From positions 1 through 53,959 of IMG/VR virus record IMGVR_UViG_3300033149_004108: a DNA stretch of 53,959 bases; one strand, 5' to 3'. Under the pieces are notes generated by a model. It searched no databases, was not told where the DNA came from, and was given only the letters and a program-made list of their open reading frames with translations. The position numbers and the translations under genes are program-made. The DNA is from a virus. This document shows positions 5,894 to 53,959 of this stretch, in pieces (within the stretch, counting starts at the first letter, position 1; every line of letters starts with the position of its first letter).

Positions 5894-6615
5894 GAATTGT
5901 GGTCGGCGGCATCATTCATTACAGAGCGACGATACAACAGCATCTGCGGTCTGTACTTGCACTCGATAATGGAAAACATGAGTTGAAACACGCGTGGGTT
6001 GTTGACAACTCTCCAGAGGTGGTGCGACTGTTGGAGGGCGACGCCGATGCTATTGTTGACGCAAGGATACCAGGCGATAGATATAAGCGCGAGCAGTTGC
6101 CCGCAAGCAGGCGGAGGCCAATCTATGCCAGGCTTGCTGCGTTGAGGAACATGCTTGCCGAAGTTGCTATCAGCCTTGGCGCTGACGCGCTGCTTTCGAT
6201 TGACTCCGATATTGTGGTGCCAAAGCATCTTCTGGTGAAACTTGCCGATGTTGATGTTGACTGGGTTGCGGCACTGGTGCGCAACGGTGCGGAGCCTACC
6301 ATCTACAATGTGTTCAAACTCGTCAACAATCATGTGAAGCGGTTTGCCCCCATTGTATACGAGGGTGGCTTTCAGAGGCCCACGAGTGCTGTTTGGTATG
6401 ACCCGCAAGACGAGGGAAAGAAGCCGTGTCTTGCTGCGGGTGCGGTATGCATGTATTCACGCAGACTGCTGGAATCTGCGCGGTGGAGCACGGACGGAAG
6501 GGGCTGCCAAGAAGATGTTGGCTTCGCCCGCAATGCTCACGCAGAGGGGTTCAGCGCGTGGTATGTTCCTGTAATATGTAGACACCTTACGGTTGGTGGT
6601 GCTGATGGGAACTGA
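5890..6615 (+). CDS. GT-A-like glycosyltransferase
   Basis: 241 residues. The pattern fits a short GT-A enzyme: an N-terminal VGGIIHYRA strand, WVVDNSPE in the nucleotide-binding region, LLSIDSDIVVP carrying the DxD metal motif, and a C-terminal GCQEDVGFARNAHAEGF with the likely catalytic acid, followed by a conserved-looking His (RHLT). ATG overlaps the preceding stop. It is the fourth glycosyltransferase of the cassette. Donor and acceptor unknown. Confidence 0.7.
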   Translation: MRIVVGGIIHYRATIQQHLRSVLALDNGKHELKHAWVVDNSPEVVRLLEGDADAIVDARIPGDRYKREQLPASRRRPIYARLAALRNMLAEVAISLGADALLSIDSDIVVPKHLLVKLADVDVDWVAALVRNGAEPTIYNVFKLVNNHVKRFAPIVYEGGFQRPTSAVWYDPQDEGKKPCLAAGAVCMYSRRLLESARWSTDGRGCQEDVGFARNAHAEGFSAWYVPVICRHLTVGGADGN

Positions 6616-6847
6616 TCTTGACAAGCAAGCGGGTTTGCAGCCCACCCTGATAGCACTGAGGTGTCCAGAGGTAACGCCGAAAGGTCGGTTGTGCAACAGG
6701 CTTTTGCTTCGTGTGGTGCAGAAATCTGGTGTCTCCGTGTTGGAGACATACTGCCCGAATTGCGGGACATGGGCGCAATGGCAGGTAGAACATGGCAGAA
6801 GGCCAATCTACAAGATGGTCCGAAAAAAGTGGGGAAGAGGGGGTTGA
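6605..6847 (+). CDS. Zinc-ribbon protein, Com-like
   Basis: 80 residues with two cysteine pairs: one early (CPEVTPKGRLC) and one late (CPNCG). This is the layout of small zinc ribbons such as the phage Mu Com translation regulator. ATG 6605 is preferred over an in-frame TTG at 6593 because it overlaps the preceding stop in the cassette's usual way. The stop codon lies inside the -35 box of the next promoter. A regulatory role is possible but not shown. Confidence 0.6.
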   Translation: MGTDLDKQAGLQPTLIALRCPEVTPKGRLCNRLLLRVVQKSGVSVLETYCPNCGTWAQWQVEHGRRPIYKMVRKKWGRGG

Positions 6848-6873
6848 CAAATAACCGACTTCGTACTTAGAAT
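6844..6873 (+). promoter_or_regulatory. Sigma-70-like promoter for the capsid operon
   Basis: TTGACA at 6844-6849 and TAGAAT at 6868-6873 are separated by 18 bases. It sits immediately after the sugar cassette and reads into the scaffold and capsid genes. A terminator-like hairpin lies about 60 bases downstream, before the first gene. Confidence 0.7.
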
Positions 6874-7006: not shown

Positions 7007-7996
7007 ATGGTGTGGTTTGCTAGGCAGGCGATTGAGAAGGCACGGCAGTTGCGGCGGCTTGCCGTGTACGAAGTATCGCTTGTGGGCAAGCCGGCCAATC
7101 GGCGGCGCTTCCTGCTGTTCAAGTCAGAAGGAGGTAATAGCGATATGGACAGGTTGACAGAAGATGATGCCCTGGACCTGGAGGAGCGTCTGAACACGCC
7201 TGCCAGCAAGGAAGAGGATGTAATGTCTGCGCTTGAGAAAGCGGAGGGACTCTCCGACAAGGAGAAGAACGCCGTGCGCGGCGCAATGCGTCTGCTGGGG
7301 AGTCTCAAGGACAACAAGGTGATTGCAAAGGTGTTGCAGTCCCTTGCAAGCATTGCTGGCTATGGCTATGCTGCTCCAACGAAGGGCACTGGCGACAAGG
7401 ACGAGGAAGAGGAAGACAAGGATAAGAACACGGACACTCCCGTGAACAAGAGCGATAAGTTTGCGATTCCAGAGGAGATTGCCAGCCTCTCCAAGTCCGC
7501 GAAGCCCGATGAGTACGAGGCGATGCTGAAGGCAGCGCGCGAGAATCCTGGTGTGGTGGCCCTGCTTCTCCCCATTGTGAAGGCCCGCGATATGGAGATC
7601 GAGCGTCAGGCCCAAGTTCTCAAGGAGATGAAGGAGCGCGAGGAGATGGCGCAGATTGAGAAGATGGTTGACGAGGTCAATCTGCCTGGCACCTCGCGCG
7701 AGGACCAGGTCAAGTTCCTGAAGGCGTTGACTCCAGAGCAGCGCGATGCTTGGCTCAATCAGATGAAGGCTGTTGCCGCCGCTGTGGACGTTGCGAATCT
7801 GACTTCGGAGATTGGCACGTCCCGCAAGCCCGATTCTGACAAGGACTCTCCGATGGCGCAACTGGCCAAGATGGTTGACGAAGCCATCGAGAAGTCAGAG
7901 GGCAAACTGACGAAGGGCGAAGCCTGGGATCGCGTGTTGAGCACGCCCGAGGGCCAGAAACTCTATGAGACCTACGAAGCGAAGGTCGGGAGGTAA
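7007..7996 (+). CDS. Scaffold-like protein carrying the displaced C-terminal signature of a prohead protease
   Basis: 329 residues. Residues about 19-44 contain VYEVSLVGKPANRRRFLLFK, which closely matches the segment that normally ends XkdF-type prohead proteases (EVSLVDRPAN-like). The rest is charged and helical: a very acidic KDEEEEDKDK stretch near residue 130 and a predicted coiled coil around residues 195-225. That composition and the place just before decoration and capsid genes fit an internal scaffold. Weak SD; start at ATG 7007, with GTG codons close behind. The most natural reading is that one protease-scaffold gene was split, leaving the protease core at the end of the fusion gene and the remainder here. 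Scaffold role is inferred. Confidence 0.65.
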   Translation: MVWFARQAIEKARQLRRLAVYEVSLVGKPANRRRFLLFKSEGGNSDMDRLTEDDALDLEERLNTPASKEEDVMSALEKAEGLSDKEKNAVRGAMRLLGSLKDNKVIAKVLQSLASIAGYGYAAPTKGTGDKDEEEEDKDKNTDTPVNKSDKFAIPEEIASLSKSAKPDEYEAMLKAARENPGVVALLLPIVKARDMEIERQAQVLKEMKEREEMAQIEKMVDEVNLPGTSREDQVKFLKALTPEQRDAWLNQMKAVAAAVDVANLTSEIGTSRKPDSDKDSPMAQLAKMVDEAIEKSEGKLTKGEAWDRVLSTPEGQKLYETYEAKVGR

Positions 7997-33059: not shown

Positions 33060-33611
33060 TCACTCCTCGATTTCGGTGAAGCCGTATCGTTCATACGCCC
33101 GTACGCGTTCACCCTCTGTATCGGCCGCCATCATGTTGCGTCGGCAGGCTTCGGCAATCCAACACGCCTCTGCGCGTCCATCCAGCAATCGTCCCCGTTC
33201 TGTCCGAAAGGCGCCATTCGGCCATTGGCGTTCAGCGAGTTCAACGAGTAGCCGTTTGCGGTCCCTCTTGTCTCGCGGGAGGGTTTGAGGCACTACCTTG
33301 CGCCACTTGGCTGGCGATACCTCAGAGAATGGTATACACAGGGCGGTGAACACCCCTCGCCAGTACCCGCAGGCAACGCCCACTTTGAAGTTGGTAGTAG
33401 CGGGGGTCTTGGGGAACGCGTGCTGTGCTTCGATGAAGGCACAGACCGGCCCGTTCACCTCTACCCGTTCATTGCCGCGCACTATCGCCAGACAATCATT
33501 CTTTCGGTGTAGGCGAAGCCCATCCGTGTCAGCGAGTGCCTGTAATGTCCCAGTTTCGTCTACAACCGCCAGCGCGCCCTGCGCTCCTGGGTCTATGCCG
33601 ATGTAGTTCAT
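33060..33611 (-). CDS. RuvC-like Holliday junction resolvase
   Basis: 183 residues from ATG 33611. The RNase-H-like fold is visible: YIGIDPGAQGALAVVD with the first catalytic Asp, CAFIEAQHAF with the catalytic Glu, FKVGVACGYWRG and WRKVV in the usual places, and a C-terminal DGRAEACWIAEACRR with the last acidic residues. It would resolve branched DNA before packaging. Overlaps the upstream membrane-protein gene (ATGA). Confidence 0.8.
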   Translation of the reverse strand: MNYIGIDPGAQGALAVVDETGTLQALADTDGLRLHRKNDCLAIVRGNERVEVNGPVCAFIEAQHAFPKTPATTNFKVGVACGYWRGVFTALCIPFSEVSPAKWRKVVPQTLPRDKRDRKRLLVELAERQWPNGAFRTERGRLLDGRAEACWIAEACRRNMMAADTEGERVRAYERYGFTEIEE

Positions 33612-33757
33612 TTCCCATACCTCCAAGGCGGCACAAAGAGTGAGAATAGACACCCAACTGCTATCGCTGCCCACCAGGGCCACCCATACATGCTGTGGGC
33701 AATGATAGCGACCAGGGGAACTGATAATAGTGCTCCCGCGTTGATGCTAATCCGCAT
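33608..33757 (-). CDS. Tiny membrane protein
   Basis: 49 residues with two closely spaced hydrophobic stretches (LLSVPLVAIIAHSM and WWAAIAVGCLFSLFV), mostly membrane-embedded. Its stop overlaps the resolvase start (ATGA) and its start lies inside the end of the upstream gene. Confidence 0.6.
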   Translation of the reverse strand: MRISINAGALLSVPLVAIIAHSMYGWPWWAAIAVGCLFSLFVPPWRYGK

Positions 33758-34235: not shown

Positions 34236-34470
34236 TGCCGCGTTCCTTTGTGTCGCGCAGGGCAAGACAGTCTTCTACCGAGTGAAGAGCGTCCGCCTCT
34301 GCCTCTGTTATCTGCCACTCCCTGTTGCCAGCAGGCGACCTGTGCATGAGGAACAACATGCCCTTTGTCCTGCGTTGCACAATCCAGATGCCTTCGTGTT
34401 CGCTGCCAACGAAGGCGGCGATTGGCTCTCCGTTATTCCCAGGGTTCGGGTTCTGCGTTGCTGTCGTCAT
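34228..34470 (-). CDS. Hypothetical protein
   Basis: 80 residues from ATG 34470, which lies inside the end of the helicase gene with GGAGG upstream. A beta-like middle (GIWIVQRRTKGMLFLMHR) is followed by a short helix. Not recognised. Confidence 0.55.
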   Translation of the reverse strand: MTTATQNPNPGNNGEPIAAFVGSEHEGIWIVQRRTKGMLFLMHRSPAGNREWQITEAEADALHSVEDCLALRDTKERGNE

Positions 34471-36112
34471 CGGATGCACCTCCTTCCTCTTGTTCGGGTT
34501 CTGGCTCATCCTTTGGTAGCAAGTAGTATTCGGCGTAACGACCTGCCTGCCGAGACGCTAGCACCTTCTGCTTGCGGAGCATGGCCAACGCCTCGTCAAA
34601 GGTCCGCACCGAACAAGGGATGTCTGCCTGTACTGCACCAAGGAGGTCCCTTCTGGACATTGGCGAAGTGGACAAGAGGGTGTAGATGACTTCCTTCACC
34701 TGGTCGGTAACCGCTTCGATTGACTGCGAGACGGTTCCGCCATAGACGAAGGTGGTCCCTTCGCCATTCGGCCCCGATTCTTCGAGTATCTGGAAACGAG
34801 GCTCATATTGCTTCGGGTGTCGCGCCTTGCGGTGTTCGAGTACGCGCGTTCCCTGGCCCGTCTTTATCATCAGCATCATACTGTCCGCCAGGTGAGCAAT
34901 CGCGCCGCTTCCAGACACACCGCGGTTGCCCAATTGTTCTCCAGGTTGCAGTTTCGGCGGGTGGGCAATCACGAGAACATGGCAGAAGTGTTGCTCGGCG
35001 AATAGGCGAAGGCGGTTGAAGATAGGCGCTACCACCTCTCGCTTATTCAAGTCGGCAGTACCACTCAGGCTTGCCATCGAGTCCAGAATCACGAGACGCG
35101 CCTTCGTTTGTCGCACTGGCCCAATCAGGATATTGACCGCCGACAGCAGAGGTCTGTTGTGTAGCACCTTCGCCAGGGTCTCGCCGAAGATGAACTCGAT
35201 GCGCCTCTTTGGGGGAGGAGCATCATCGGAATCGCTCTGTTCCTGTTCTTCGCCTTCAATCCCGAACACTTCTATTGCCTGCTTGTGCCTCATATGCAGA
35301 ACATAGTCTGATGATACTCCTGACCCCTTGTCGAGGTCCTCAACACGCTCAGTGTTCCCTGCCCGGCCGGTTTCGGCATCCACGAAGATGACGCCGCCCT
35401 CCTGTTCGAACTTGAACTTGCCGAGCCACTTGTGGCCATGCACGTATGCATGGGCTAGCGACAGCGCAATCAGGCTCTTGCCGCACCCCTCGGGGCCAAA
35501 GAGCACTGATACCCCAGGTATGGGCAGAAGCGGATACATGAGATATTTCACCTTGTTTCCCTCCAGGATTAGGTCATCAACATTCACCAGTTCGAGTTGT
35601 TCACCGCAACCCTGGTCGAGGAGTTCGCGCAGATATGACACGCGGTCTGGGTCGGACTTCAGTAGTACCGAACACAGGGCGTCCCGCAGGCGTCTACGGT
35701 CGGCAGCGACCTTCACGGCACGAGCGTATTCGCCGACAAGCGCCGCTGTCGAACAGTCATTCGTCAACTCCACGAGGTAGTCAATGCCGCCGCAGGCTTG
35801 CAATGCGTCGGGGGCTAGGTCTGACTGGAGCACGATGTAGTCCACCGGCCTCCCCTCGTTGTAGATGCGCAGGATATGGGAGTACAGATATCGGTGGGCG
35901 GGTTCGCCGAAGTCCTCTGGCATCAGCCATGATGCGACGGAGGTAATGGCGGCCCGCTCTGTCAAACACGCCCCTAGGACGGCCCGCTCTGCGTTTATGT
36001 CAGCCAGTTGGCGGCTCGCCTTGATTGTGGCTATGATGGCCTCGGCGTCGTTGCCGAGCAAGGCTTCGGGATCGAACTCTGGCCGTTCCTTTTGTCGCTT
36101 TTTTCGAGCCAT
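34433..36112 (-). CDS. DnaB-N / RecA-fold replicative helicase-like ATPase
   Basis: 559 residues. Residues about 38-145 are a DnaB N-terminal helical domain (NAERAVLGACL, HRYLYSHILRIYNEGRPVDY, GGIDYLVEL). It is followed by a RecA-fold ATPase of the RepA/AAA_25 type with Walker A GPEGCGKS (residues 206-213), IFVDAETGR and Walker B RLVILDSMASLSG, then LVIAHPPK. The C-terminal 90 residues look like a winged helix (VIYTLLSTSPMSRRDLLGAV) with an acidic end. Presumably unwinds DNA at the origin. The iteron array lies immediately upstream. ATG 36112 or 36115. Confidence 0.75.
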   Translation of the reverse strand: MARKKRQKERPEFDPEALLGNDAEAIIATIKASRQLADINAERAVLGACLTERAAITSVASWLMPEDFGEPAHRYLYSHILRIYNEGRPVDYIVLQSDLAPDALQACGGIDYLVELTNDCSTAALVGEYARAVKVAADRRRLRDALCSVLLKSDPDRVSYLRELLDQGCGEQLELVNVDDLILEGNKVKYLMYPLLPIPGVSVLFGPEGCGKSLIALSLAHAYVHGHKWLGKFKFEQEGGVIFVDAETGRAGNTERVEDLDKGSGVSSDYVLHMRHKQAIEVFGIEGEEQEQSDSDDAPPPKRRIEFIFGETLAKVLHNRPLLSAVNILIGPVRQTKARLVILDSMASLSGTADLNKREVVAPIFNRLRLFAEQHFCHVLVIAHPPKLQPGEQLGNRGVSGSGAIAHLADSMMLMIKTGQGTRVLEHRKARHPKQYEPRFQILEESGPNGEGTTFVYGGTVSQSIEAVTDQVKEVIYTLLSTSPMSRRDLLGAVQADIPCSVRTFDEALAMLRKQKVLASRQAGRYAEYYLLPKDEPEPEQEEGGASDDDSNAEPEPWE

Positions 36113-36119
36113 CACCTCA

Positions 36120-36411
36120 ACCTTTGCAGGTGTTTTGCACTTGTATTGTACTGCTTTTGCAATACCTTTGCATTGCAGGACCTTTGCAGGGAAAACCCTT
36201 GTTTTGCGCTACCTTTGCAGGCTTCACTGCAAAGGTCCGACCTTTGCAATAGCAGGCGAGCGGCAGTCTAGCACTCTGCAAAGGTCGTTTTTGGGCCAGA
36301 AGCCCTCTAGATTGCCCCAGGAGACGATTTCGCTCGACCTTTGCACCTTTGCAAATACTATAATAGACTGCAATCCTGCAAAGGTCGTGCTCAGAGGGTC
36401 TAACCTTTGCA
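36120..36411. repeat. Iteron array: 11 copies of ACCTTTGCA (candidate origin or operator)
   Basis: Perfect 9-mers on the plus strand at 36120, 36164, 36180, 36211, 36240, 36337, 36345 (sharing one base) and 36403. On the minus strand they lie at 36228-36236, 36277-36285 and 36377-36385. Several partial copies (TTTTGCA, ATTGCA) lie between. A TATAAT at 36359 and other A+T-rich spots occur inside. The array fills the whole gap between the annealing-protein stop and the helicase start. Clusters like this bind a replication initiator or a repressor. Confidence 0.8.
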
Positions 36412-36427
36412 GAGCACTATTGCAGAA

Positions 36428-37921
36428 TCATGCCGATTTTTCACCTCCGACAAGGCCCAATTCCTGGGCCGCCTGCAACAGTTCTGACCTGTCGAGTTGC
36501 CCAACGGCCTTCTTCTTGAACCGCTTGGCAAGCCAGTCCATCGCCCGCTTCGGGTTCGCCTCTGTAGCATCTCTCAAAGCGTGGCCCACCATCTGTCGAA
36601 GGGTAGGGTCGTTCAGGTCAGGGAATGGGTCCTCGTCGGACCCTTCAGATTCCTGCGTCTCCTGGGGCGTCTCTGCTCCACTTTCTGACGAAGCCCCCTT
36701 CTGAGGCGATTCTACGCCCTCGTTTGGGGTCTCAGGCTGTTCTGCTTCGGCGTTCTCGACAACAGCACTGTCTTCCCCGAAGGTCTCAGCCACCGCGTCC
36801 CACACAGAACCCTGTTCTGCGCCCTCAGCGTCCGCAGGAGCGTCGCTTTCGGCGGGAGGTGGGCTACCCCCCGTCTTCCCCTGTTTGCTCTCGTCTGAGG
36901 GCGTGCTAGAGGCATTTTCCGGCTTCTTAGCATCGCCCTCCAGGTCGTAAACATATCTGCACTTGGGATAGCCGGAACACCCCAGAAAACGGCCATACTT
37001 GCCAGTACGCTCCTTCAGGGGCTTTCCGCAGTTCGGGCAGACGGTGGGGGCATCCTCAGCACCCTCGATTTCGCCCGTATTTTCGCTCTGAGCGGCGTTC
37101 GGAGGTGGAGACGGGTTACCCCCCATGTCGGCCCCTTCCGCCGTCTCCTGCGAAGGCTGAGGGGCTTCTGCGGGGCTTACAGTCATCGGTTCGCTGTACT
37201 CAGCACCACCGCCAGCCGTCGTGGTGTCGGCTGTCTGCGCTAGGGACGGCATAGGGGCGAACTCCACTTGCTCGGCAATATCACGATATTCGGGGGTGGG
37301 TTCGCCAGACGCAACGCCGAACTCTTCGGGGGCATACCCCGTCAGGCCGGTGGCAATGCGGAACGCCCTGCGCAAGAGAGTTACCTGGAACATGTGATGC
37401 CAACCGACCCTGTCCTCTGACCACGAACCACCGATACGGTCCTTGTATCGCTTGACGACCGAACCCAAGTAGGCAGTATAGTGCAGGGGGTCCAAAGGCG
37501 GCTTTCTTCTGATGATGATGGTGGCCTGGAAATCATCACCAGGATACTCCCGCGGCCATTCTGACGGGTCGGGCTTGATAGTGTAGCCGAGGATTTCGCC
37601 ACCCTTCACCGCCAGTTTGAGGTAGATTTGGTACGCCAGTCCCATTTCCCACTTCACATACTTCCTGCCGTTGTATTCGACCTCGAAGGGGATTAGGTAG
37701 GCTTCCTTGGTGCGCGGGTCTACGCCGTATCCCGCACAGTACAGCAGGAACTGTCGGGCCGTATCAATGCCTGGCGCGCCATGCCGAGAACGGAAAAGCA
37801 GTTGCACATCGCGCACAGAGACCGCGACCTTCCGCCCTGGCATGATTGCCGATTCCCACAGGACTGGCTTGTCGAGCGCGATGCCCGTCGTCTCCTCTGG
37901 GTGTTTCTGGATATTTCGCAT
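36428..37921 (-). CDS. RecT/Bet-like annealing protein fused to a topoisomerase-type zinc ribbon
   Basis: 497 residues from ATG 37921. Residues about 30-205 fit the RecT/Bet single-strand annealing family ([31 protein letters not shown], then [19 protein letters not shown]). A Pro/Glu-rich linker follows. Residues about 292-325 form a topoisomerase-I-style zinc ribbon: [26 protein letters not shown]. The last 170 residues are acidic and disordered, then end in a basic helix ([11 protein letters not shown]). The next gene upstream is a PD-(D/E)XK exonuclease, the usual partner. The zinc ribbon would add single-strand DNA binding. Confidence 0.75.
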
Positions 37922-37940
37922 GGGTGTTGCACCTCCTCTG

Positions 37941-38915
37941 TTATTCGGCGTCGTCCACCACCAAGCGGCGCACGGTGCTGAAGGTGGCGTACTTGTCTTT
38001 GATTTCCTGGGGAAGGGCTTTGGTGTCAACGCGGGTCTGTTCGTGGACCTTCACAAAGAAAACCTTGCCGTTGTGCTCGATGCAATTATCTTCGCGGGCG
38101 AGCACGATTTCCTGTGCCGCCTTCTTTGCAGCATCGAATGCCTTGATTCGCTCTCTGTGCTGGTCGTACCATTCGCTCAGTTCGAGGAACAGGTCGAGTT
38201 GGCGTTTCTCGTAGTCGTTCAGTTCAGATGCTTTGCGCGCACCGAAGCAATCCGTGCACGACCACTCGCTACGGGCACACGCTTCTGGATTGTGTGGTAG
38301 GTCCGCAATGAGGTTCGCCAATGCCGCAAGAACATCGGGGTCGTCTTGTGGGACACCGTCTTTGGCGAATCGGTCGCGAATCGCCTGCCCCTCTTTCACA
38401 ATCGGGGCGAGCATATCCGCCCATTCCCTCAGAACGGAGGTCAGTTCTGGCGGGGGACCATCCAGGCGCATTTCCGTGCGTGCACCCATCTGGCCGTAAA
38501 CGGCGAAGGTGATGGGCACACCGTCATACCGCAGGGAATAGGTCCCCGCCTGGTACAGCCACGCAAGGGGCGGACTTGCGGGCGGCGTGGTGCGAAACTT
38601 GACTTCCCGTACCTCGACTACCTTGCCGCCTTCACGAATCAGAAAGTCAGGGGTCCCCCGAACCGGCAGCGCGAGTCCCAGTAGAACGACCTGTCTGCCG
38701 CGGTAGAAGTCAACGCCGTCTGCCTTCAGGCGTTCTGCCTCTACCTCTTCCCAGTATTTGCCCATTGCCATCCATCGCTTTTGGGCGGGGGAGAACGGGC
38801 GCGTTTTTGGTAGCCCTAATAGGCGCGCTCCCACACAATGTGGGCAACTGGTGAGTTCTGACGGCGCGATTGCGCCTTCGTGATGTGCCTCCCAAGGGGC
38901 TTGGTGTTGCGTCAT
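37941..38915 (-). CDS. PD-(D/E)XK exonuclease (Cas4/RecB-like)
   Basis: 324 residues. [12 protein letters not shown] with the catalytic Asp and VVEVREVKF with the E-x-K core, then YQAGTYSL, form the nuclease active site. Early cysteines ([11 protein letters not shown]) and a late [13 protein letters not shown] may bind an Fe-S cluster as in Cas4/AddB enzymes. It sits next to the annealing protein, giving an exonuclease-annealase recombination pair. TCCTTTC-type spacing upstream includes GAAAGGAGAGGAAAG as a ribosome site. Confidence 0.75.
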
Positions 38916-40011: not shown

Positions 40012-40290
40012 TCATTCCCCACTCCGTGAAGCAGTTTCCCTTTCCCTCACTTCTTCATTCTCGCCCTCTTCGGCTTCGTCTAGATAGAGCACCTCCTTCG
40101 GCTCTTCAAGTTTCGCTTGTCGTTCCGCTTGAGCGACCCAGGCTTCGACTTGTTCGCGAATCACAGCACCCATTGAGGTGCCAACGCGCGTAACCGCCGC
40201 TTTGAAACGGGCGTGTAGGTCGGTTGGCAGCAACACCAACAGGGGTTGAATATCCTTTTCTTCTTTCGTTCGTGCATACACAGTCTTCAT
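40012..40290 (-). CDS. Ribbon-helix-helix DNA-binding protein (CopG-like)
   Basis: 92 residues from ATG 40290. LLVLLPTDLHARFKAAVTRV then GTSMGAVIREQVEAWV is the strand-helix-helix pattern of CopG/Arc-type repressors, followed by an acidic tail. It is the first gene downstream of a strong promoter (40556-40584). A broken paralogue lies at 43528. It may regulate the early arm or bind the iterons; this is inference. Confidence 0.7.
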   Translation of the reverse strand: MKTVYARTKEEKDIQPLLVLLPTDLHARFKAAVTRVGTSMGAVIREQVEAWVAQAERQAKLEEPKEVLYLDEAEEGENEEVRERETASRSGE

Positions 40291-40555
40291 TCGATTTCGC
40301 CTTGAGCAAAGAGGAAGGGGCGCAGGCAGAGGTTGTTTGGATTCAAGGGTGCGAGCGTGGCGAAGAGCACCCCTGGGAAGGGTCGTCATGCCGAGACTTG
40401 CCTACTGTCCAGAGAGGAGGTGACTCGGCTGTCTCTTTTGTCGCGCTGTGGGGAGCAACAGCAGCAAAGGAGAAAACGCCCTGCCTGCGCCTTGTTCGCT
40501 ATTCCGATGCCATTGTCGCACGGCCTCCTTATCTGGTCATTGCGATTCTGCATGG
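40291..40555 (-). other. 265-base leader between promoter and CopG-like gene
   Basis: No gene of convincing size. It contains only fragments such as GGAGGCC followed by a 4-codon ORF. It would form the 5' untranslated leader of the CopG-like transcript. Confidence 0.4.
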
Positions 40556-40584
40556 ATTATATATCACATATATATCTAGGTCAA
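40556..40584 (-). promoter_or_regulatory. Promoter inside the end of the sliding-clamp gene
   Basis: On the minus strand TTGACC (40584-40579), 17 bases, then TATAAT (40561-40556), in an A+T-rich ATAT stretch. Nearly the same sequence forms the promoter at 47352. It would drive the CopG-like gene and the recombination genes. Confidence 0.75.
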
Positions 40585-41846
40585 GAGCCCTCGTAATGAA
40601 CCTTTGTGAAGTTCTTCGCACATGGGTAGACGGGTGCTAAGAGCGCCGCATGTCGTTCGCCAATCAACAAAACCCGTGGCGGGTTATCGTCGGTCAATCC
40701 TAGCACCAGATACTCTTGTTCCCGAAACGGCATGATAGCGTCGAGCAGATACCGCGCGTTGACTCCGAACGATACCTGTCGGCGCGGGTCTTTACCGCCC
40801 ACTGCCCTACACGCCATGCTCAGCGTTAGCGGACTGCCTCCCGCCAAGATCATCGTCATATTCAGGTTCCGCTTTGTTCTAGTGCAGTATAGCGTTTGCC
40901 CGCTAGTGGCAATGCGCATACTGCTGGACAAGTGGCGGCACAGCCGCCTGACCGAGAGCCGCAGTTTCACGGCGATGTTTGCGCGCGCCCTGTTCAGCAT
41001 GTTGATAGCGGAGGTGGCGGCCTTCTGCGGCAGGTTGTGCTTGACTGCGAGGAGGCCGATGCTACCCTCTACGACCGTCCAACCTGGAGGTTTGGATACA
41101 TAGCACGAGACCCCGCTATCAAACTCCTGCCTGAATGATGCTGCGACCGCAGGTAGGCTTCTATGCGGCCAGATGCAAGCGGCCTTTTCATCTACTGGGG
41201 CTTCACCTATATGCACGGCGTGGATACGCCTGCCGTCGGTAGCAAGGCAGACGAGATTGCCGCCGTCCGGCACAATGCACCCGAACGATTGGTCTTCAGG
41301 GTCTCTGAAGACCGCGCGGCGCACCCACACCAGGTCGGGATGCAACGAACGGGTATCGTCTATGCGATAGACGAATCGCAGGTCTGGCTTCGGCGGCCCC
41401 TTGGGTTCAGTTGTGGCGTGCAGGAGGGCGCGCGTTTTGTCTATCGCCTCGATTGCGAGCATGGGCTTCGTCCCATCTTCCCACCAATCGAGGGAGAAGT
41501 TCAGCCCCCTGCGGTATCGCATGATGCGCGCGGCTTGTCTCCACGGCAACAGATAGACGCCCACAAAGCCCTCGCCGTCTTTTGCTACCCGTCCGGGCAC
41601 CCGTTGCGAACACAGAACTCTGTTGCCAACATACCGCAAGATTGGCTGGCCGTCGTAGCCACCTAGTTGTATGACGGTGTTCTTATCGAGTTCCGCACCG
41701 TCGGCCTTCACCGCCTGCCACAATACACGCCAGCGTTGCCACATGTAGCGAGCGTACATGTTGAATTTCACTTGCGGCTTGGTGGGCGGTTTCGGCGCGG
41801 CCTTCAGTGCGGCTCTTCGTATCGTGTCCAGGCTCATGTTCACCAT
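40581..41846 (-). CDS. DNA sliding clamp (beta-clamp-like)
   Basis: 421 residues. NLVCLATDGRRIHAVHI matches the conserved ATDGHRLA segment of bacterial beta clamps. The C-terminal region (FGVNARYLLDAIMPF, YLVLGLTDDNPPRVLLIGERH and a closing beta segment) matches the end of their third domain. It is longer than the usual 370 residues and divergent in the N-terminal domain. No DNA polymerase gene is seen, so it probably recruits the host replicase or another clamp-binding enzyme. ATG 41846 overlaps the end of the HTH gene; ATG 41837 is an alternative. Confidence 0.7.
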   Translation of the reverse strand: MVNMSLDTIRRAALKAAPKPPTKPQVKFNMYARYMWQRWRVLWQAVKADGAELDKNTVIQLGGYDGQPILRYVGNRVLCSQRVPGRVAKDGEGFVGVYLLPWRQAARIMRYRRGLNFSLDWWEDGTKPMLAIEAIDKTRALLHATTEPKGPPKPDLRFVYRIDDTRSLHPDLVWVRRAVFRDPEDQSFGCIVPDGGNLVCLATDGRRIHAVHIGEAPVDEKAACIWPHRSLPAVAASFRQEFDSGVSCYVSKPPGWTVVEGSIGLLAVKHNLPQKAATSAINMLNRARANIAVKLRLSVRRLCRHLSSSMRIATSGQTLYCTRTKRNLNMTMILAGGSPLTLSMACRAVGGKDPRRQVSFGVNARYLLDAIMPFREQEYLVLGLTDDNPPRVLLIGERHAALLAPVYPCAKNFTKVHYEGS

Positions 41847-42049
41847 TTCGGTTTCTCGTCTTCGGGGGCGGGCACGAATCGCACCCACCCGCCGTACTTG
41901 TTGTTGGCGTTGCCAACGCGAATGGGGATGTAGCCCCCGAAGTTCACGGGTTCGCCTTGTTCCCACGCCTTTACCCAGCGCAGGATTGTCCCTTTGGTAA
42001 CGCCGAGCAGTTCGGCCATTTCGCCCGGCGTCAGAAGGAGGGAGGGCAC
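41840..42049 (-). CDS. Helix-turn-helix DNA-binding protein (excisionase/MerR-like)
   Basis: 69 residues. LLTPGEMAELLGVTKGTILRWVK is a clear helix-turn-helix, followed by a wing-like GGYIPIRVGNANN segment. Such small proteins act as excisionases or regulators. With no integrase seen, a transcription role is more likely. Overlaps the clamp start. Confidence 0.75.
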   Translation of the reverse strand: MPSLLLTPGEMAELLGVTKGTILRWVKAWEQGEPVNFGGYIPIRVGNANNKYGGWVRFVPAPEDEKPKW

Positions 42050-43289: not shown

Positions 43290-43547
43290 TCATACACGAA
43301 AGATTTCCACCGCGGGGTTCTCAGGGGCGCGATAGTAGAGATTTGAAGGACTCCATGTCTCCAAATGAACTGTGGCGCGATCTATCACGAGTGCACCACG
43401 GCCAGGATGACAGCGAGCGTACTCTGATGCTAGGTGCTTTGCTCGCCGACCACTGTTAGTTGCAGCGACCATTTTGCGGAAGTGCCTAGAAGGTTCAGGT
43501 CGTCCCCCCGCTGTGTTTACGTCTACGTCATGGATTGCGTATCTCAT
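43290..43547 (-). CDS. Hypothetical protein
   Basis: 85 residues. RRAKHLASEYARCHPGR helix and a beta-like end. The ATG has GAAAGGAAAGA just before it and lies inside the broken RHH gene. Not recognised. Confidence 0.55.
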   Translation of the reverse strand: MRYAIHDVDVNTAGGRPEPSRHFRKMVAATNSGRRAKHLASEYARCHPGRGALVIDRATVHLETWSPSNLYYRAPENPAVEIFRV

Positions 43548-43715
43548 CTGTCTTTCCTTTCTCCTCCCCTTCCACTTCGACGGTCGAAGCGTACCGCTCT
43601 ATTATCGCCCTCAGGATTCCCGTCATGGTCTGCCCCTCTGCCGCGCAGGCGGCCTTGAATCGCCTGCGCAGGTCTTGGGAATCCACAGGACTAATTGCAC
43701 CTTCCCGTTTCTCAT
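43528..43715 (-). pseudogene. Frameshifted ribbon-helix-helix protein
   Basis: ATG 43715 opens MRNGKVQLVLWIP, and 10-12 bases later the -1 frame continues DLRRRFKAACAAEGQTMTG, ILRAIIERYAS, up to a stop at 43528. A fourth C in the CCC after the Trp-Ile codons gives an intact 62-residue RHH protein very like the one at 40012 (LLVLLPTDLHARFKAAV). As sequenced, the first frame stops after 30 residues. Real mutation or homopolymer indel. Confidence 0.65.
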
Positions 43716-46298: not shown

Positions 46299-46361
46299 CG
46301 CTCTACCTCCTCTCTGTAATTCCCCCTGCCTCATCAGGCCCTGGCTGGGGAGTCCGGGGCG

Positions 46362-46400
46362 ACGGGCCTAACGGCCCGTTTCGGCTAGGGTCATAACCCT
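46362..46400 (-). terminator. Two hairpins in the 46299-46390 gap
   Basis: Read on the minus strand: AGGGT...ACCCT (46400-46387) at the end of the upstream gene, then ACGGGCC-GTTA-GGCCCGT (46379-46362), 7 perfect pairs. No U-run follows. Possible partial terminator or RNA-processing site. Confidence 0.4.
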
Positions 46401-52498: not shown

Positions 52499-53959
52499 AT
52501 GGCGAGAAGCCAACGATTCCTTGAAGCCTGGTATCAGCGTGTCAGTCCCTGGGTAAAGCGGTATCTGCCAGGCATTGCAGACAGGTTGTTGCGCCAAGCG
52601 AGGGGCGAAGCCGGCGGGCGTTCATCGCCATTGAAGGTTGATGCGGTTGAGAAGATGGCGTTGGGCGTTTTGAACGAGAAGAATGTGCGCAGCCTATCTC
52701 GCAACGAAGTCTTGAATCTTCATCGCCGTTGTCATCAGTTGGTAGCGCGCGCCAAAACATCGGCCGATATTGACACTGCCGAACTTGCCCGCGCCCATTC
52801 GCTACTCGTTTCCGAGATGAAGCGGCGCGGTATGTTCCACAGGTCGCCGTTGCAGGCGTGCATGTTGAAGTCGGAAGTAGTATCAGATGATGTTCCAGAG
52901 GAACTGGTAGTCATTCCCGACTTCGTTTCTGTGGTGGGTTCATCTGTCGCCGACGCAGAGAAGGCGAACGATATAGATGTGCTGTTTCGCGCTACGCGTG
53001 GAGCGAAGGGCTTCACGATACCTGCCAAAGGCATTGAGGTGCTCGCACGCAAGGCTATTGCGCCGCGCAAAGATAAGGAACTCCACTATATCGACGAACC
53101 GACTGGGCCGCATGCTGATTACATCCCGTTGTACGACCTCGTGTTGCGGCGCAGTAAGAGGCCCAAGCAAGTCGTGAAGGGGGATGGCGAGCACGACAAG
53201 GTTGACCTCGGTTGCGGAGATAACAAGCCCGCCGGCTACTTTGGCATTGACAAGCAGCCAGGTGATGCTGTTGATCTTGTTGCTGACCTGGAGTTTGGGA
53301 TTCCATTGCCCAGTGAATCTGCTGAAGTAGTGCGCGCTCATCACATACTGGAGCATCTACCCGACAAGGAATCAATCATGGCGGAGATTTGGCGCGTGCT
53401 CAAGCCAGGAGGGATTGCCGATATTGTCGTTCCGTCATCCGAGGGGATTGGTGCTGATGCAGACCCGACGCACAAGAGCAGATGGAACTCTGCATCATTC
53501 GCGTTCTGGACTGAAGAGAGTCTGCTTGCAGACCGCCCTCGTTTTGAGGAGGTGTCTGTTGAGTCAAAGTTGCAGCCGAACGGCAGCATATGGGTGTTTG
53601 CGAAGTTGCGCAAACCTGTTGAGAAGGCGGTAGCACCACTCAAGACATTTACTCCGCCGAAGCCGAGTATGGCGGCAATCACCGAAGTATTCTCGGTTGA
53701 TGAAATCTGGGATGCGTGGGTGAAGAAGCATCTTGACGGCGGCGTTGTCGCTGAACCGAAGTACAATGGCTTCCGCGCGATCCTCACTGGCGATGGCAAG
53801 GGTAGCGTCTCCATCTGGTTCGAGGACGCGAAACGGGAACACGAACTGCCTGGCTTGACCGACGCATTGCAGAAGATAGACGAGCCGTTCGTGTTGGATG
53901 CGAGCGTTGGTATCGAACGAGACGGCAAGCCACTGCCGAGAATCGAGCTGATGACGCTG
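52499..53959 (+). CDS. Multidomain fusion protein, N-terminal part (nucleotidyltransferase-, methyltransferase- and ligase-like)
   Basis: Starts at ATG 52499, 7 bases after the preceding stop, with AAGAAGG upstream. 449 codons reach the repeat, and the frame continues exactly at base 1. Residues 1-130 are helical. VVGSSVADAEKANDIDVLF (145-163) is the G-S...D-x-D signature of polymerase-beta-type nucleotidyltransferases, and GPHADYIPLYDLVL completes a related pattern. VDLGCGDNKPAGYFGID (235-251), HHILEHLPD and IWRVLKPGG form a Class I SAM methyltransferase. Residues 416-429 (VAEPKYNGFRAIL) match ligase motif I, K-x-N-G, with candidate lysine 421 for adenylate. The remaining domains are in the entry at 1. 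Four enzyme-like domains ahead of a head protease is highly unusual. Confidence 0.8.
   Translation, partial: MARSQRFLEAWYQRVSPWVKRYLPGIADRLLRQARGEAGGRSSPLKVDAVEKMALGVLNEKNVRSLSRNEVLNLHRRCHQLVARAKTSADIDTAELARAHSLLVSEMKRRGMFHRSPLQACMLKSEVVSDDVPEELVVIPDFVSVVGSSVADAEKANDIDVLFRATRGAKGFTIPAKGIEVLARKAIAPRKDKELHYIDEPTGPHADYIPLYDLVLRRSKRPKQVVKGDGEHDKVDLGCGDNKPAGYFGIDKQPGDAVDLVADLEFGIPLPSESAEVVRAHHILEHLPDKESIMAEIWRVLKPGGIADIVVPSSEGIGADADPTHKSRWNSASFAFWTEESLLADRPRFEEVSVESKLQPNGSIWVFAKLRKPVEKAVAPLKTFTPPKPSMAAITEVFSVDEIWDAWVKKHLDGGVVAEPKYNGFRAILTGDGKGSVSIWFEDAKREHELPGLTDALQKIDEPFVLDASVGIERDGKPLPRIELMTL
53846..53959. repeat. Terminal direct repeat, right copy
   Basis: Identical to bases 1-114. Removing one copy gives a circle of 53,845 bases with no broken gene. 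Confidence 0.95.

Follow-up and report, generated by a model that had tools for sequence, protein, structure and literature searches.

The winged helix of the P4 alpha protein binds the repeats of its origin (PMC4234260). In SaPI Rep and Cch2, the C-terminal domain binds iterons that lie beside the gene (PMC7581432), and the PICI origins contain two sets of iterons that flank an AT-rich region (PMC6092414). RSF1010, with its RepA, RepB, and RepC proteins, combines an iteron-containing oriV with a dedicated helicase (PMC4234260).

The window (the whole record of 53,959 bases) begins and ends with the same 114 bases, and therefore it is probably a complete phage genome, either terminally redundant or circular. 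The 9-mer ACCTTTGCA occurs 13 times in the record, and 11 of these copies are found within 36120-36411, eight on the plus strand and three on the minus strand. This recount agrees exactly with the preliminary description, which had reported eleven perfect copies in these orientations ahead of a replicative helicase gene and had expected few copies elsewhere. The helicase gene is on the minus strand with the array directly 5' of its start, and the two stray copies, at 7324 and 12899 (both on the minus strand), lie within coding sequence. Such a distribution is unlike the stoperator type, in which many copies are scattered over the genome.

The chance expectation for ACCTTTGCA in the whole record is 0.40 copies, and the largest number obtained by shuffling was 3. 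When the gap itself was shuffled 1000 times with dinucleotide frequencies preserved, the most frequent 9-mer had one or two copies in 988 shuffles, three in 8, and four in 4, and never 11. A scan of all 9-mers of the record detected no word with at least four copies per 400 bp outside the helicase gap. The earlier statement that chance would give a near-zero count is therefore borne out for the array, but the word itself is not exotic, as the overlapping 17-mer TGCAAAGGTGCAAAGGT is often found in cellular genomes. No copies of ACCTTTGCA with one mismatch were found within the gap. Eleven exact copies and not a single near copy suggest either constraint on the exact word or a young array.

The gap that holds the whole array (36116-36427, 312 bp), as delimited by the list of open reading frames and gene scoring, extends from a RecT-like gene, which ends at 36428, to the helicase start, and its AT content is 51% versus 43% for the record. 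Counting from the helicase side, repeats 1 to 4 (36120-36128, 36164-36172, 36180-36188, and 36211-36219) are all on the plus strand. Repeat 5 (36228-36236) is inverted and forms with repeat 6 (36240-36248, plus strand) a palindrome-like pair, TGCAAAGGT-CCG-ACCTTTGCA, with a 3-bp centre. Repeat 7 (36277-36285) is on the minus strand. Repeats 8 (36337-36345) and 9 (36345-36353), both on the plus strand, overlap by one base and form, in an 8-bp register, the sole tandem pair of the array; they are followed by repeat 10 (36377-36385) on the minus strand and repeat 11 (36403-36411) on the plus strand. The spacing of the plus-strand copies is irregular (44, 16, 31, 29, 97, 8, and 58 bp), and therefore the array lacks the phasing of classical plasmid iterons. 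These are regular direct repeats of about 20 bp, whereas those of the phage are 9 bp long, occur in both orientations, and are spaced 8 to 97 bp apart.

Within the gap, the weakest duplex of 25 bp is at 36352-36376; it lies between repeats 8/9 and the inverted repeat 10 and is a candidate unwinding element. It is of modest length, stands at the 99.93 percentile of the record, and is the fourth weakest region at a 25-bp window; weaker duplexes exist in the record, for example at 40554 and 47352. At the other end of the gap, repeat 1 read on the minus strand (TGCAAAGGT) places AAAGG 8 nt ahead of the helicase ATG at 36112, which is probably a good Shine-Dalgarno position for this gene. Because the helicase-proximal repeat overlaps the probable ribosome-binding site, autoregulation of the helicase is plausible.

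The helicase gene (34433-36112, minus strand) encodes a protein of 559 residues, with a DnaB N-terminal domain at residues 36-134 (PF00772, E 1.4e-23), an AAA_25 core at 175-389 (PF13481, E 1.7e-23), and a predicted C-terminal helix-turn-helix (HTH) at about 465-515; it is the candidate initiator. Sequence comparison with solved structures gave DnaB N-termini and a weak match to Twinkle. A single-sequence structure prediction of a 74-residue C-terminal piece gave three helices with a block-mean pLDDT of about 78-92, together with a poorly predicted tail and a wing of low confidence. In a Foldseek search with this model, the nearest solved folds included winged-helix domains (cullin WHB, SSV1 F-93, and Rpa2) at probabilities of 0.85-0.99 and non-significant E-values, and no significant match was obtained in a viral structure library. 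The C-terminus had previously been called winged-helix-like. From the model, a winged helix there is plausible, in that an HTH of three helices is predicted and winged-helix folds are among the nearest, but the fold matches do not reach significance.

The gap sits within a cluster of recombination and replication genes, which includes, besides the helicase, a Holliday junction resolvase-like gene (33060-33683, minus strand; phrog_1770, E 4.2e-19), the RecT-like gene, and a nuclease-like gene. The RecT-like protein (36428-37924, minus strand; the start is approximate and was chosen inside a longer open reading frame that extends to 38029) carries a topoisomerase-type zinc ribbon (Zn_ribbon_Top1, E 4.6e-13), and its RecT match (E 3.9e-4) scores 20.5 bits, under the Pfam cut-off of 24. 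The adjoining gene (37941-38915, minus strand) encodes a 324-aa protein with a cysteine cluster and no Pfam or PHROG match, which by eye only has the look of a PD-(D/E)XK (RecB/Cas4-like) nuclease. By the same visual reading, these two adjoining genes may encode an exonuclease/annealase pair. The neighbourhood of the gap also contains a gene for a ParG-type ribbon-helix-helix protein. A 461-aa protein (40581-41966, minus strand), the C-terminus of which resembles a sliding clamp by eye, was considered as such and rejected: PF00712 was not found in it, and its sole match was to TIGR00663 at E 0.013.

When compared with the described systems, the locus would share with P4 alpha a helicase with a winged helix for short origin repeats, if the domain predicted in the phage is one. 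In contrast to P4 alpha, which carries a Toprim-type primase, the phage helicase consists of DnaB_N and AAA_25 with no fused primase. The P4 alpha helicase belongs to SF3. The likeness to the Rep-ori of SaPIs and PICIs and to SCCmec Cch2 consists in an array by the helicase gene, a weak duplex between the repeat groups, and a helicase C-terminus that is a candidate DNA-binding domain. However, SaPI origins are downstream of rep, whereas the phage repeats, which come to within a few bases of the ATG, are upstream of the helicase gene. The SaPI and SCCmec helicases also contain DUF927 or Primase_Cterm, while none of the cores found in P4 alpha and SaPI Rep (SF3, DUF927, or D5/Primase_Cterm) is present in the phage protein, the core of which is PF13481 with PF00772. 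RSF1010 likewise has iterons and a dedicated helicase, but there the initiator is a separate protein, RepC, the like of which was not noted among the annotated proteins of the phage, and the phage repeats are short, irregular, and of mixed orientation.

With another helicase core and an upstream array, the phage system is not a member of the P4 alpha/SaPI family. It matches the P4 alpha, SaPI, and PICI precedents in layout and, if the HTH holds, in domain order, and by analogy it may work like them. Features general to iteron origins are also seen, namely short copies clustered in a non-coding gap by a replication gene and a weak segment between repeats.

The array is probably an iteron-type origin or an operator. 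The preliminary description had offered the same pair of readings, and from the count, clustering, and position of the copies it is still the best one, the role being what we infer from these. On balance, and with only a little more confidence than doubt, the array is taken here to be a replication origin, or one of several, that is bound by a phage protein, most economically the helicase itself. In favour of an origin are the density and perfection of the array, which is unique in the record and was never approached in the shuffles, its location immediately ahead of the gene for a DnaB_N/AAA_25 helicase in a recombination/replication cluster, and the position of the weak duplex between oppositely oriented sites.

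Under the origin reading, a phage protein would bind all eleven 9-bp sites as a cluster, after which the weak duplex (36352-36376) would open and the helicase would be loaded. The most economical binder would be the predicted C-terminal HTH of the helicase. The protein would then be its own initiator and load itself, much like P4 alpha or SaPI Rep. The array may also serve to control the helicase gene, in that occupation of the site overlapping the ribosome-binding site would damp helicase expression.

Ring helicases of the DnaB type usually need a separate initiator and a loader. It is a tentative proposal, which may well fail, that this DnaB/RepA-like (RecA-fold) helicase needs neither and loads itself as an initiator: a winged helix fused at its C-terminus would read the 9-bp repeats and place the ring on the helicase's own origin. 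If true, a self-loading DnaB-type helicase would extend the P4 alpha/SaPI Rep arrangement to another helicase core, and the fusion of helicase and recognition domain would allow ring loading to be studied in a minimal system. With an origin at the array, an uncultured phage lineage would have a defined replication start, and it could be tested in a simple way whether a DnaB-type helicase can carry its own origin-recognition domain.

A model of third-position GC skew did not place the origin at the array. Its optimum, at about 25-26 kb, is inseparable from a change of coding strand. Because the best-fitting switch points coincide with coding-strand changes, the skew is uninformative in this genome, and it neither helps nor excludes an origin at the array.

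The main rival is an operator without origin function, to which a phage regulator would bind cooperatively and control the transcription or translation of the helicase. This is considered possible but doubtful. Suitable regulators are encoded, in that ribbon-helix-helix (RHH) proteins of the ParG/Arc kind are found at 40012-40389 (minus strand; ParG family, PF09274, 25.9 bits against a cut-off of 21.4) and, as a second candidate, at 43528-43686. The overlap between the helicase-proximal site and the probable Shine-Dalgarno sequence, and a skew with no sign of an origin at the array, are likewise consistent with an operator. However, eleven sites over 312 bp are many for a single promoter, and within 35900-36700 the minus strand showed no sigma-70-like promoter, although one of a non-standard type is possible; no terminator-like site was found in the same interval. 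The array is absent elsewhere in the record, and therefore a genome-wide regulon is not indicated.

It is also unlikely, and more so than a simple operator, that the array is an origin bound by a separate protein, either a phage initiator of an unassigned family or one from the host, and that the helicase is loaded in some other way. Such a binder would be compatible with the facts that most of the minus-strand early open reading frames have no family match, that the helicase HTH is a prediction and AAA_25 proteins with no arrays nearby have C-terminal stretches like that of the helicase, and that the word is found widely in tandem form in cellular genomes. In contrast, no match to the Rep_3 initiator (PF01051, at a threshold of E 0.001) was obtained in the record, and no lambda O-like, Prim-Pol, or family A polymerase families were detected, each of these negatives covering that family only and the PF04492 control having exceeded its cut-off in one genome only. 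With Rep_3, lambda O-like, and Prim-Pol undetected, no standard initiator competes with the helicase. PF08401 (ArdC N-terminal), which is not an initiator family and has no bearing on the origin question, was not found either. The gap contains no DnaA-box-like site (TTATCCACA-like, with up to one mismatch), as would be seen in an oriC-like origin, which also argues against this reading.

The array is most improbably a partition centromere, occupied by the ParG-like RHH protein, in a plasmid-like prophage: the family match is above the Pfam cut-off and the protein proposed earlier as a candidate binder is indeed encoded, but no ParA-type ATPase, as expected beside a parS-like centromere, was found in the record with AAA_31 (PF13614; control positive in 14 of 14 genomes), no tyrosine integrase was found there, and the RHH gene is 3.6 kb off with other genes intervening. 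Equally improbable is a functionless, host-derived short-sequence repeat of the kind seen between genes in Opitutae, Bacteroidota, and other groups (TGCAAAGG arrays). In its favour, at least 120 stretches in the genome collection contain the tandem 17-mer. Against it, the phage copies do not have the form of a tandem microsatellite: they are dispersed, lie in both orientations, have flanks that are for the most part unrelated, and have no one-mismatch copies and only one tandem pair among them.

Searches of IMG/VR with the helicase, the RecT-like protein, and the conserved motifs of the helicase found no relatives. An alignment of distant helicases was tried as a query and was too divergent to scan with. 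Relatives of TerL are many, with identities of up to 36%, and no helicase match was present in 20 records with such relatives, these records being fragments and the negative being without a positive control. In two phages with a TerL about 33% identical to that of the window, TTCCAA...TTGGAA arrays are located upstream of the terminase genes (L046:9060-9400 and L048:8010-8300). Distant plasmid AAA_25 proteins align over a similar C-terminal stretch, and no array of this kind was found within a few kb around the genes of AAA_25-core proteins, which counts against the favoured reading. The helicase of Vibrio phage 1.076.O (AUR85573.1) has the same DnaB_N and AAA_25 architecture at about 22% identity, and the 3.7 kb surrounding its gene contain no repeat array.

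Arrays of the same word were also sought in IMG/VR. A scan for three direct copies within 30-bp gaps was set aside, since it returned mostly regular arrays resembling coding repeats. Inverted pairs of the word gave 29 matches, among which a real cluster was found only in L158 (IMGVR_UViG_3300029957_000035), with nine copies of CTTTGCAC in mixed orientation at 6528-6862 and an AT-rich stretch between the groups. On one side of this cluster is a gene for a VapE-domain protein, and on the other a NusG-like gene. The mixed-orientation GGTGCAAAG array around the AT-rich stretch is a candidate origin of another phage.

L158 resembles the window in the core word, the mixed orientation, the AT-rich stretch between groups, and the adjacent gene of primase/helicase type (VapE-domain), but its array is downstream of that gene, whereas that of the window is upstream of the helicase. 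No protein similarity to the window was detectable in the 13 kb of L158 examined, and BLASTP of the helicase C-terminus against its VapE-type protein gave no match. In scans for the tandem 16-mer and 17-mer, the word was frequent in cellular repeats, tandem or intergenic in the cases inspected, and several stretches per genome were found in some genomes. Since a large collection allows a chance 9-bp match and the tandem word is common in cellular genomes, L158 is treated as a parallel rather than a relative, and the two may have come to share the word by chance convergence; the abundance of the word in cellular intergenic repeats likewise weakens it as evidence of homology. Tandem repeats of TGCAAAGG are frequent in Opitutae, Flavobacterium, and other bacteria, some of which have several per genome.

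Two further features of the record may be mentioned. A Type II hammerhead ribozyme was identified by Rfam in the early gene region (46320-46386, minus strand; RF02276, 42.4 bits versus a cut-off of 37). A long open reading frame on the plus strand, judged by its coordinates, runs in frame across the record ends through the 114-bp terminal repeat, from 52499-53959 into 1-1926, and its first part matches phage methyltransferase families.
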